The notes under the pieces were generated by a model. It was not told where the DNA came from, did not search any database, and was given only the letters and a program-made list of their open reading frames with translations. The position numbers and the translations under genes are program-made. Shown one piece after another: positions 7,768-59,212 of a stretch of DNA of 64,000 bases (position 1 is its first letter; the number at the start of each line of letters is the position of its first letter). The DNA lies in contig CP129489.1 in NCBI GenBank assembly GCA_030584065.1, positions 3,574,235-3,638,234 on the forward strand. Reading direction: 5' to 3'. The DNA is from Flavobacteriales bacterium (GTDB taxonomy: Bacteria; Bacteroidota; Bacteroidia; Flavobacteriales_F; PHOS-HE28).

Positions 7768-8483
7768 TGGAGCACTACTACTACCTCGGCCTCGACCTCT
7801 TCACCCTGTCGTTCCCGCTGCTGCGGAGCTTCGAGCCCAAGCTGCAGTACTGGCGCAAGTGGCCAGGCCTCTTCACCGGCATCGCGGTGATGGCCACCGT
7901 CTTCCTCATCTGGGACGCCATCTTCACCGCCCATGGGGTGTGGGGATTCAACCCGCGCTACCTCACCGGCCCGAAGTTCTTCCACCTGCCCATCGAGGAG
8001 TGGCTCTTCTTCCTGGTGGTGCCCTACAGCTGCGTGTTCATCTATGAGGCCCTGCGCCATTATGTGCGGCGCGACATCCTGGGGAGGGTGGCACGGCCGC
8101 TGAGCATCGCCCTCATCGCGGTGCTGCTCGTGGTCGGTGGGCTCCACATCGACCGCATCTACACCGCCATCACCTTCCTCAGCACGGCCGCCATGCTGGC
8201 CTTGCATGTGTTCGTGTTGAAGAGCCCTTACCTCGGGCGGTTCTATCTGGGCTATGCCGTGAGCCTAATCCCCTTCTTCCTGGTGAACGGCATCCTCACC
8301 GGCTGGCTGCTCGAGGAGCCCATCGTGTGGTACAACGATGCGGAGAACCTCGGCATCCGCCTCAACACGATTCCTATCGAGGACAGTCAGTACCTGCTCT
8401 TCTTCCTGCTGCTCACCATCACTTTCTACGAGCGGCCGCTGAAGCGGGGGCATGGCGACCTGCCGCCGGTGGATCAGCCCTGA
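7767..8483 (+). CDS. Lycopene cyclase, CrtYc/CrtYd fused type
   Basis: A 238-residue integral membrane protein made of two lycopene cyclase domains in tandem. The first contains FFHLPIEEWLFFLVVPYSC and the second IRLNTIPIEDSQYLLFFLL. The paired P-I-E-E/P-I-E-D motifs are typical of CrtYcd/CrtY-B-type cyclases. It closes the psi end of lycopene into a beta-ring. With CruF and a CrtD-like desaturase the likely product is a monocyclic carotenoid with one beta-end and one hydroxylated acyclic end (inference). The gene starts inside the cruF stop and ends overlapping the convergent pnuC gene by 10 bases. Confidence 0.87.
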   Translation: MEHYYYLGLDLFTLSFPLLRSFEPKLQYWRKWPGLFTGIAVMATVFLIWDAIFTAHGVWGFNPRYLTGPKFFHLPIEEWLFFLVVPYSCVFIYEALRHYVRRDILGRVARPLSIALIAVLLVVGGLHIDRIYTAITFLSTAAMLALHVFVLKSPYLGRFYLGYAVSLIPFFLVNGILTGWLLEEPIVWYNDAENLGIRLNTIPIEDSQYLLFFLLLTITFYERPLKRGHGDLPPVDQP

Positions 8484-9094
8484 GCCGCCTTCCACGTCCG
8501 GTGCCATCGGACCAGCGCGGAGATGGAGAGCCCCACGTAGATGATGTAGAGCGCCGCGTACCACCACATGCCGAGCAGCGCATAGAGCGCGATGGCCACG
8601 GCATCCGCCGCGATCCAGTAGGCCCAGTTCTCGAGGATCTTGCGGGCCAGCATCCATGTGGCGAGCAGGCTGAAGGCGGTGGCAAAGCCGTCCAGCCCGG
8701 TGAGCCGGGCATCGGGAAGCAGGCGGAGGGCCAGGGCAAGGCAGAGCGTGAGCAGTGCGCCAAGGGCCACGATGCCTAGATGGAAGCGCGGCTTGCGGCG
8801 GGTGATGGGCAAGGCATCTGAGCTGCTCCGGCCCCAGGTCCTCCAGCCGTAGACGCCCATGCCGACATAGAAGGCGTTGAGCGCCACTTGGGCATACACC
8901 TGTTGGTGGAGGAACAGGGCGACACCCAGCGCCGAGGCGACGATGCCGAACAGCCAGCCCACGCGCCGCTCATAGAGCATCAGCACGGTGTAAGTCAGGT
9001 TGCCCGCGGCGGCGGCGGCTTCGATAGCGGTCCAGGCCAAGGTGGTCGGGGTGGGTGAGAGCGGGTCGAGGGGGCGCGACAACCGGGTGTTCAC
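8474..9094 (-). CDS. pnuC: PnuC-family vitamin transporter
   Basis: A 206-residue membrane protein with about seven hydrophobic segments and the PnuC block LENWAYWIAADAVAIALY near residues 150-170. PnuC proteins import nicotinamide riboside by facilitated diffusion and substrate trapping; the Bacteroidota relative PnuT imports thiamine. No TPP riboswitch precedes this copy. It lies 25 bases downstream of the LRR gene and shares a minus-strand operon with ribF, a cofactor gene. The NadR-like kinase at 2392-2916 is a plausible trapping enzyme. Nicotinamide riboside is favoured, but substrate specificity cannot be read from what I can see. Confidence 0.85.
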   Translation of the reverse strand: MNTRLSRPLDPLSPTPTTLAWTAIEAAAAAGNLTYTVLMLYERRVGWLFGIVASALGVALFLHQQVYAQVALNAFYVGMGVYGWRTWGRSSSDALPITRRKPRFHLGIVALGALLTLCLALALRLLPDARLTGLDGFATAFSLLATWMLARKILENWAYWIAADAVAIALYALLGMWWYAALYIIYVGLSISALVRWHRTWKAAQG

Positions 9095-56687: not shown

Positions 56688-56695
56688 TACCTTTG
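56688..56695 (+). promoter_or_regulatory. -7 promoter element for the TPP-controlled TonB receptor
   Basis: TACCTTTG, an exact TAnnTTTG match, placed so that transcription would start around 56701, right at the 5' edge of the riboswitch aptamer. Confidence 0.6.
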
Positions 56696-56701
56696 CCCCG
56701 T

Positions 56702-56788
56702 CTTGCAACGGGGTGCTCCGCCCAAGGGCGGAAGCTGAGATCATACCCGAAGAACCTGGGCAGGTAATGCTGCCAAGGGAACGGCTTC
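56702..56788 (+). promoter_or_regulatory. TPP riboswitch aptamer
   Basis: The invariant THI-box pieces are present in order: ACGGGGTGC at about 56708-56716, a P3 stem CCGCC/GGCGG, GCTGAGATCATACCC at about 56734-56748, GAACCTGGGCAGGTAATGC, and the closing AAGGGAACG at about 56775-56783. It binds thiamine pyrophosphate and controls the TonB receptor that follows. It starts immediately after a strong -7 element. Confidence 0.92.
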
Positions 56789-56800
56789 CATCTGGAGGCG

Positions 56801-56827
56801 CCTCCGTGCAAGTCTTCAACACGGAGG
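56801..56827 (+). promoter_or_regulatory. Shine-Dalgarno-sequestering hairpin
   Basis: CCTCCGTG (56801-56808) pairs perfectly with CACGGAGG (56820-56827), which contains the GGAGG ribosome-binding site 3 bases before the ATG. The same CCTCC can also pair with GGAGG at 56794-56798 upstream, so two exclusive structures are possible. This suggests the riboswitch controls translation. Confidence 0.6.
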
Positions 56828-56830
56828 AAC

Positions 56831-59212
56831 ATGCGACCGATCCTTGCACTCTTCGCCGCGGCCCTGCTCAGTATGGGCGCCGCCGCCCAATCACGCCTCA
56901 CCGGCACCATCACCGGCGGCGATGGCGTCCCGCTCGAGGGCGTGAGCATCGTGGTGGGCCCGGATGCCCGTTTCGGTGCGGCCACCGACCGGCTCGGCCG
57001 GTACGCCATCGGGGGACTGCGCGAGGGCCCGTTGCGCGTGCGCCTGTCGCGCATCGGCCATGCGCCGGTGGACACCACCGTGTCGATCGCGGCCGGTGAG
57101 AACACCTTCGACCTGCGCCTGCCCGCTGCTCCCGTCCTGCTGTCGGCCGCCGAAGTGACCGCATTGCGGGCGGGCGATCGCGCGCCCTTCGCGAAGACCG
57201 TGCTTCAGCGTGAAGACATCGACCGCATCAACACCGGCGTGGACCTGCCCTTCCTGCTGGAGCAGCAGCCCGGCGTGGTGGCCACCAGCGATGGCGGCAC
57301 CGGCATCGGCTACACCTACATGCGCATACGCGGCACCGATGCCGCGCGCACCAACATCACCCTCAATGGAGTGCCCTTCAACGATGCGGAGAGCCAGGGC
57401 GCCTTCCTCGTGAACCTGCCGGACCTGGCCACCAGCGCCGAGGACATCGAGGTGCAGCGCGGCGTGGGCACCAGCACCAATGGCCCGGCCGCCTTTGGTG
57501 CCAGCTTGAACGTACGCACCACAGCGGTGAGGCGTGAGCCCTGGGCGCTCGCCAGCGTGAGCGGCGGGTCCTTCAACACGCAGCGCTACAGCGTGAGCGC
57601 CGGCACGGGATTGATCGATGGCCGCTTCAGCCTCGATGCGCGCCTCTCGTCCATCACCACCGACGGCTACATCGACCGCGCGACCGCCGACCTGAAGAGC
57701 TACTTCCTCCAAGGTGCATGGCTCGGCCGGCAGCGCGCCCTGCGGTTCATAACCTTCCGGGGGAAGGAGGTCACCTACCAGGCCTGGGGAGGCGTGCCGC
57801 GCGAGGCCATCGACACCAATCGCACCTTCAATCCCTACACCTACGAGAACGAGGTGGACAACTATGACCAGACGCACTACCAGCTGCTCCTCGACCAGCG
57901 GCTGGGTGGGAGTGTGGCGCTGAACCTCACGGTCTTCCGGGTGCTCGGTGCGGGCTATTTCGAGCAGTTCCGCGAAGACGATGACCTGGGCCGCTACGGC
58001 ATCGCACCGGCCGTCATCAATGGCGACACGGTGATCAGCACCGACCTCATCCGGCGTCGCTGGCTGGACAATGCGCTCACCGGCGCGAATGCCAGCGCCG
58101 AGATCAAGCTGGGCGGGCACCGGCTCGTGGTCGGCGGCAGCTACAGCGAATACCGCGGCACGCACTTCGGAGAGGTGGTCTGGGCGCGATGGGCCGGTAC
58201 GCTCGATATCCGCGACCGCTACTACGACAATGACGCACGGAAGACCGACGCGAACGCCTACGCCAAGCTCACCTATGCCCTGGGCGACCGGCTCGATGCA
58301 TTCGGTGATGCGCAGGTTCGCATGGTGGAACACCGCCTGGAGATGCTCAACAGCGATTTCGCGCCGCAGCAGCAGTCCATCGCCTTCAGCTTCTTCAACC
58401 CAAAGGCGGGGCTCCTCTGGCGCGTGCACGATGGCGGCAAGGCATATGCATCGGTGGCCGTGGCGCACCGTGAGCCCAACCGCGAGGACCTGCAGGAGAG
58501 TACGCCCGATCGCCGCCCCCGCGCCGAGCGGCTGGTCGACTACGAACTGGGCTATGAGCGGGGTGCCAGCCGCACGAACGCGGGCATCAACCTCTACTTC
58601 ATGGACTATGCGGATCAGCTCGTGCTCACCGGCGAGCTCAATGACGTGGGCGCAGCGCTCCGCACCAATGTGGCAAAGAGCTACCGTGCGGGCATCGAGC
58701 TGACGGGAGCGGTGCGCATCGGGCAGCGCATAACCTGGCGTGCCAACGCCGCGTTCAGCCGCAACCGCGTGCGCGACTTCACGGAATTCGTGGACGATTG
58801 GGACACCGGCGGGCAGGCCGCATTCGCCTATGCCGAGCGTGAGCTCCCGTTCTCGCCGGGTCTCGTGGCGGGCAGCGAACTGGGCTATCGCGCATGGAGC
58901 AGCGAGCGCGGCACGGCCGACATCACGTTCGTCACGAAGTACGTGGGCACGCAATACCTCGACCTCAGTACCAGCCCCGACCGCAGGCTCGACCCCTTCC
59001 TGGTGAACGACCTGCGGCTGAATGCCACATGGTTGGCCAAGGGCACCAGGGGCATCGACTTCAATCTCACGGTCCGCAACCTCTTCAGCGAGCTCTACGA
59101 GAGCAACGGCTGGGCCTACAGCTTCATCAGCGATGGCAGGCGCCAGCAGCTTGTGGGGCTGTTCCCGCAGGCGCCGCTGCATGTGCTGGCGGGCGTGAGC
59201 GTGAAGCTCTAG
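56831..59212 (+). CDS. TonB-dependent receptor under TPP-riboswitch control (probable thiamine receptor)
   Basis: A 793-residue receptor: signal peptide MRPILALFAAALLSMGAAAQ, a carboxypeptidase-regulatory-like beta-sandwich (RLTGTITGGDGVPLEGVSIVV, residues about 22-100), a plug with YTYMRIRGTDAARTNITLNG and FGASLNVRT, and a barrel ending KL after HVLAGVSV. The TPP riboswitch strongly implies uptake of thiamine or a precursor across the outer membrane. It is monocistronic: no PnuT or thiamine pyrophosphokinase follows, unlike the omr1-pnuT-tnr3 operons known from Bacteroidota. A GGAGG site precedes its ATG, unusual in a group that mostly lacks Shine-Dalgarno sequences. Confidence 0.92.
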   Translation: MRPILALFAAALLSMGAAAQSRLTGTITGGDGVPLEGVSIVVGPDARFGAATDRLGRYAIGGLREGPLRVRLSRIGHAPVDTTVSIAAGENTFDLRLPAAPVLLSAAEVTALRAGDRAPFAKTVLQREDIDRINTGVDLPFLLEQQPGVVATSDGGTGIGYTYMRIRGTDAARTNITLNGVPFNDAESQGAFLVNLPDLATSAEDIEVQRGVGTSTNGPAAFGASLNVRTTAVRREPWALASVSGGSFNTQRYSVSAGTGLIDGRFSLDARLSSITTDGYIDRATADLKSYFLQGAWLGRQRALRFITFRGKEVTYQAWGGVPREAIDTNRTFNPYTYENEVDNYDQTHYQLLLDQRLGGSVALNLTVFRVLGAGYFEQFREDDDLGRYGIAPAVINGDTVISTDLIRRRWLDNALTGANASAEIKLGGHRLVVGGSYSEYRGTHFGEVVWARWAGTLDIRDRYYDNDARKTDANAYAKLTYALGDRLDAFGDAQVRMVEHRLEMLNSDFAPQQQSIAFSFFNPKAGLLWRVHDGGKAYASVAVAHREPNREDLQESTPDRRPRAERLVDYELGYERGASRTNAGINLYFMDYADQLVLTGELNDVGAALRTNVAKSYRAGIELTGAVRIGQRITWRANAAFSRNRVRDFTEFVDDWDTGGQAAFAYAERELPFSPGLVAGSELGYRAWSSERGTADITFVTKYVGTQYLDLSTSPDRRLDPFLVNDLRLNATWLAKGTRGIDFNLTVRNLFSELYESNGWAYSFISDGRRQQLVGLFPQAPLHVLAGVSVKL

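Follow-up and report, generated by a model that had tools for sequence, protein, structure and literature searches.

The RNA leader of the TonB-dependent receptor gene described here probably forms a TPP-sensing translational OFF riboswitch that controls a thiamine-uptake receptor through exchange of the strand at the 5' end of the RNA between two partners. The window (the whole stretch of DNA analysed, 64,000 nucleotides) is part of a single-contig genome of 3.92 Mb, and the features of the locus are listed in Table 1. In the mechanism we propose, transcription would start where the aptamer starts and, without TPP, the first ~20 nt (the 5' end and the 5' sides of P2 and P3) would bind the distal strand at 56794-56814, a pairing that would disrupt the aptamer as well as the start hairpin and expose the start region. 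When TPP is bound, P2-P5 would lock and the distal strand would be freed, whereupon CCUCCGUG could close a hairpin that ends 3 nt before the AUG. The GGAGG in this hairpin would act mainly as an arm that rivals the ACGGGG strand of the aptamer for CCUCCGUG, and would not be read by the 16S tail. The elements, their conservation, the matched changes (between the 5' strand and the tail, and between the hairpin arms) and the near-equal energies of the two states were computed, and from these we infer the direction of control and the effect on the ribosome. An earlier reading of this DNA from its letters (the sequence-only reading) described elements that are all present in the sequence. Its interpretation stands for the hairpin, the 5' end of the RNA and control at translation, but not for a pairing with an upstream GGAGG or for a Shine-Dalgarno (SD) role of the GGAGG before the start codon.

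Table 1. Features of the receptor leader and gene (window coordinates)
Feature	Position	Strand	Basis or remark
Promoter, Bacteroidota -7 box TACCTTTG	56688..56695	+	Sequence and leader comparison
Aptamer 5' strand (5' end, P2 and P3 5' sides)	56700..56719	+	18 pairs; own-versus-swapped tests
TPP aptamer core	56711..56778	+	RF00059, 40.1 bits; pairing and covariation in 36 leaders
P2	56711-56714/56745-56748	+	Within aptamer core
P3	56715-56735	+	Within aptamer core
CTGAGA	56735-56740	+	Within aptamer core
P4/P5	56755-56778	+	Within aptamer core
Extra hairpin, between aptamer and anti-strand	56784..56799	+	Folds; 3' arm is part of the ON strand
Distal strand	56794..56814	+	Partner of the 5' strand (ON), or CCTCCGTG pairs into the start hairpin (OFF)
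Start hairpin CCTCCGTG/CACGGAGG	56801..56827	+	Fold; stem in 34/36 leaders; covariation
GGAGG, SD-like	56823..56827	+	Probably mainly a switch strand
TonB-dependent receptor, 793 aa	56831..59212	+	Plug PF07715, CarboxypepD_reg PF13620

Four bases downstream of the promoter box the sequence GTC begins. A sigma-A box at -12 to -5 is reported for F. psychrophilum (PMC9723704), and with the box in that position +1 falls at 56700, so that the aptamer would begin at the start set by the promoter, as had been proposed. The arrangement TAnnTTYG-N4-RTC (box, spacing and RTC) is kept in 35 of the 37 leaders of the genus. The alignment with RF00059 covers 56699-56798 at an E value of 1.1e-6 (301-nt search) and scores under the gathering score of 54.3, and this aptamer is the sole TPP match in the whole genome (E 3.4e-6). 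Exactly one RF00059 match was found in each of 37 of the 45 genomes of the genus and none in the other eight, with no match over the cut-off in any of the 45; all 37 aptamers lie upstream of a gene for the orthologous receptor, whose aligned parts are 57.6-100 % identical, and this recurrence places the arrangement beyond chance. A model trained on 36 leaders (L015, from the same species as L001, was left out of the 36-leader tests) found a match in 37 of 44 genomes, a count that includes its own training sequences, and none in 3 of 29 good-quality genomes. Searches of the family and the order returned the same genus only and added no leader.

Across the 36 leaders, 90.1 % of the cells in the aptamer core are paired and 33 cells carry double changes. 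The pocket stretches and the helices P2, P3 and P4/P5 are present, and CTGAGA, ACCC, GAACCTG and ATGC are invariant; we take these invariant stretches to be the ligand pocket, with the bases that touch TPP. The ligand is presumably TPP. Compared with 200 shuffles of its sequence, the entire leader has the more stable fold (z -2.7; three shuffles did as well). A conventional P1 was sought and rejected: the 5' nucleotides do not match the first 12-14 nt right after the aptamer, and 4994 of 5000 and 2996 of 3000 permutations were as good.

The sequence-only reading had a hairpin that folds onto the start region, and this is well supported. Its stem of 8 bp joins CCTCCGTG (56801-56808) to CACGGAGG (56820-56827) around a loop at 56809-56819, and only 3 nt (AAC) separate its end from the ATG at 56831. 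Taken alone, the hairpin region folds better than shuffles at z -2.2. In 34 of the 36 leaders the stem is 5 bp or longer, the exceptions being L006 and L009 with 4 bp each, and the median distance from its 3' arm to the ATG is 3 nt. The covariation of this stem among relatives that had been named as possible support is seen: 87.1 % of the cells in its columns pair, nine cells are doubly changed against 3.3 in shuffles, and none of 500 shuffles reached the covariation score. Arms from the same leader also pair better than arms swapped between leaders (z -6.5, 0/3000; median z -5.0 after thinning to 24-26 leaders). The upstream GGAGG (56794-56798), which had been put forward as the alternative partner of the anti-strand, was rejected, as it is found in this species only (L001 and L015); the alternative partner with support is the 5' strand of the aptamer itself.

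That 5' strand (56700-56719) can pair with the distal strand over 18 bp, and doing so breaks P2 and the start hairpin. Over the 36 leaders, the mean energy of the 5' strand with its own tail is -26.91 kcal/mol, compared with -24.28 for swapped tails (z -7.2, 0/3000) and -17.7 kcal/mol for shuffled tails. Both portions of the strand contribute, the part 5' of GGGG giving z -4.3 against the tails when taken alone and the part from GGGGTG onwards z -5.0. Thinning by the identity of whole leaders, at 72 %, gave three clusters and no power, and was then based on the tails. With the limit for tail identity at 80 % (24-26 leaders) the median z for the whole strand is -6.2, at 70 % (6-10 leaders) it is -3.2, with the part 5' of GGGG weak at -1.6, and at 62 % (2-4 leaders) no significance is left. 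When only the flanks around GGGGTG were shuffled, the gap between own and other tails shrank from -2.71 to -0.42, hence composition does not explain the match of the strands; the composition control gave z -6.8. Matching changes can be seen in single leaders, namely GTCAT/ATGAC in L019, GTCC/GGAC in L006 and GTCGC/GCGAC in L013, and in each of the 36 leaders half or more of the anti-arm falls within the ON strand. A covariation test of the ON helix in fixed columns showed no excess of pairing (69.3 % versus 69.2 % in shuffles), with only the doubly changed pairs raised in number (seven against 4.1, 3/500). We count this test as inconclusive to negative, because the register varies among leaders and the loop of the hairpin aligns badly.

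A model in which the 5' end makes only a pseudoknot was favoured at first. In it, once TPP is bound and the switch is OFF, the 5' end GUCUUGCA would pair with the start-hairpin loop, UGCAAGUC, and replace the missing P1, so that the ligand would stabilise the start hairpin directly. The part of the strand 5' of GGGG does prefer its own loop (-7.62 versus -5.97 for swapped loops, 0/5000; 33 distinct of 36, with L009 dropped as no loop could be parsed), there is no local P1, and the loop sequences are able to pair while most of the stem stays closed. However, the GGGGTG part, which a pseudoknot does not need, matches its own tail too (z -5.0), and it was for this reason that the model was demoted; moreover, the two stretches directly adjoin each other and are nested, and distant leaders keep the pairing of the 5' strand with different hairpins. 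We regard the pseudoknot as unlikely and strand exchange as the better reading of the leader.

For strand exchange to be switched by a ligand, the balance between the two states matters, and this was estimated for 37 leaders by folding with either the ON helix or P2 forced. The ON minus OFF difference averages -0.9 kcal/mol and is +0.5 for the leader studied here, with a range of -14.2 to +10.6; near-equal energies of this kind are a setting in which the ligand could decide. A preference for ON is seen in some leaders, reaching 14 kcal/mol in L007, and L009, which lacks a proper start hairpin and whose arms are just 4 bp long, favours OFF by 10.6 kcal/mol. An RNA that ends at the AUG folds ON (-57.0), and one 9 nt longer folds OFF (-59.5). 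In F. johnsoniae, structure near the start tunes initiation (PMC6847099). Transcription termination, intrinsic or Rho-dependent, would be another way for the switch to act, and many TPP riboswitches do act on transcription (PMC2258182), but no terminator-like site was found and the hairpin abuts the start codon, at a median gap of 3 nt, making termination very improbable. Control is thus more likely to be translational, in keeping with the earlier view that it is not transcriptional only.

The GGAGG was held by the sequence-only reading to be unusual in front of starts, and this is so: among 50 open reading frames (ORFs) of this one window, picked by a simple GC3 rule, it precedes two, the receptor gene included. 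That it is kept as a working ribosome site for control, so that the switch would be an ordinary sequestration of an SD, appears quite improbable. The usual 16S 3' end is GGATCACCTCC, whereas the 16S of this genome ends in GGAACATCTCC. A pattern allowing both was matched in 15 of 44 genomes of the genus, among them drafts that may lack 16S, and these comprised 12 with GGAACATCTCC, three with variants and none with the usual end. In 12 of the 15 matched genomes (this one and 14 others, L128-L142) the anti-SD core UCUCC (GGAACAUCUCC) replaces CCUCC. The changed anti-SD in the genus is not new in kind, as an altered anti-SD is known in Chryseobacterium and relatives (PMC6107228, PMC8710568). GGAG precedes three of the 50 ORFs against 2.9 expected, which is no enrichment, and rpsU, which carries an extended SD in many Flavobacteriales (PMC9976891), is preceded here by AAAAAGGACACGACGACC with no extended SD. 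Among the 36 leaders, 20 have GGAGG, 11 GGAGA, four GGAGT or GGAGC, and L006 none of these; to the 16 without GGAGG, L009 can be added as a 17th, its GGAGG lying outside the hairpin arm. The spacing to the ATG is 3 nt in our leader and in 11 of the 20 GGAGG leaders, and in L021 there are 0 nt between GGAG and the start. Sequestration of an SD can still draw on the rarity of GGAGG in the window set beside its presence in 20 of 36 leaders, on the fact that GGAGG can pair with UCUCC through one G-U, and on F. johnsoniae ribosomes without bS21, which read SDs (PMC9976891). Given the G-U needed by the 16S tail, the short spacing and the lack of general use, the GGAGG is probably not a normal working SD site. 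The aptamer strand AACGGGG and the arm CACGGAGG are alike in sequence and rival each other for CCTCCGTG; this resemblance, rather than the ribosome, may well be what fixes the GGAGG sequence.

The search for the receptor in genome contigs kept 80 loci, of which 67 are distant (L058-L124). By pattern, a TPP aptamer precedes 45 of the 67 distant orthologs, and of the 22 pattern-negative loci 18 were scanned with Rfam (L104, L108, L110 and L114 were left out), 13 of them carrying an aptamer over the cut-off. The strand test was run without these 13 on 44 of the 45 pattern loci, L072 being dropped as no GGGGTG was found, and the 5' strand again pairs better with its own tail (-13.5) than with swapped tails (-11.8; 0/5000). 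With thinning to 24 loci z is -4.5, and the composition-controlled value is -3.6; in L115 the 5' strand forms 17 consecutive pairs with the tail. The start region is modestly affected, its paired fraction falling from 0.46 to 0.35 and being lowered in 20 of 41 leaders (L066, L073 and L103 were dropped, their distances being out of range), and the idea that the distal strand closes a start hairpin in the distant orthologs too is only weakly supported by these folds. We advance only tentatively the wider possibility that in the Bacteroidota, which do not read SD sites, the TPP riboswitches of thiamine receptors work throughout the phylum by strand exchange that begins at the extreme 5' end, with the first strand of the aptamer and a strand at the start codon competing for one anti-strand, in which case the GGAGG of this genus would be a look-alike of ACGGGG and not a ribosome site, and other sequences would take its place elsewhere.

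Because a TPP aptamer precedes its orthologs across the Bacteroidota, the receptor is probably a thiamine receptor of the OMthi type, and it has both the TonB fold and the upstream aptamer, found across the phylum, that mark this type. ThiC was not found in the genome and is present in 13 of 14 control genomes. A PnuC/PnuT-like transporter is encoded at window positions 8474-9094 or, on a narrower placement, about 8498-9028 on the minus strand (PF04973, 133.5 bits), 48 kb from the receptor, and its gene has no TPP aptamer of its own. A lifestyle of thiamine uptake is plausible on this gene content. Searches of the genome, which is 99.97 % complete, with PF04263 and PF04265 did not find a thiamine pyrophosphokinase, the enzyme that would convert thiamine to TPP. 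Five of 37 relatives (L030, L034, L035, L036 and L037) carry an in-frame insert of ~41-181 codons between the ATG and the signal peptide. These inserts are palindromic repeat DNA, with translations that include LARASTLVP, LPQGLRPGTLR and LHQGLAQRTLM; alternatively, the start in these five relatives has moved to a GTG inside the insert. In-frame palindromic elements are known from Rickettsia, and the receptor inserts resemble them.

No paper on this expression platform was found in a search that most of the subscription literature, including the classical THI-element work, falls outside. The aptamer is like RF00059 in its core of P2-P5, in CUGAGA, ACCC, GAACCUG and UAAUGC, and in the putative thiamine-uptake gene downstream, and differs in that all 37 genus members score under the gathering cut-off and that no conventional P1 is present here; it represents a genus-wide group missed by the Rfam cut-off. 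In a published covariation model of transcriptional TPP riboswitches, the 5' strand shares two nucleotides with the expression platform (PMC13273304), as against ~20 nt here. Sequestor/antisequestor riboswitches follow the same OFF logic with mutually exclusive pairings (PMC2258182), but here the antisequestor is the very 5' end together with the P2 side of the aptamer, and what is sequestered is probably the start region and not a functional SD. Autoregulation of rpsU in the Flavobacteriales likewise involves a rare, strong-looking SD among SD-poor genes (PMC9976891, PMC8710568); unlike that case, a structural origin of the GGAGG is more likely here, where rpsU itself has no extended SD, and with the anti-SD in the 16S of the genus itself altered, the perfect-looking GGAGG makes better sense as a switch strand than as a ribosome site. 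By its published description, OMthi (BT2390) of Bacteroides thetaiotaomicron is likewise a TonB-dependent thiamine receptor with a TPP aptamer upstream (PMC5613172). The way in which TPP riboswitches of the phylum work, BT2390 included, has been called uncertain, and the mRNA of OMthi is unchanged by thiamine (PMC5613172), which suits translational control; strand exchange at the start codon is a concrete and testable proposal for how TPP riboswitches may act at the thiamine receptors of the Bacteroidota.
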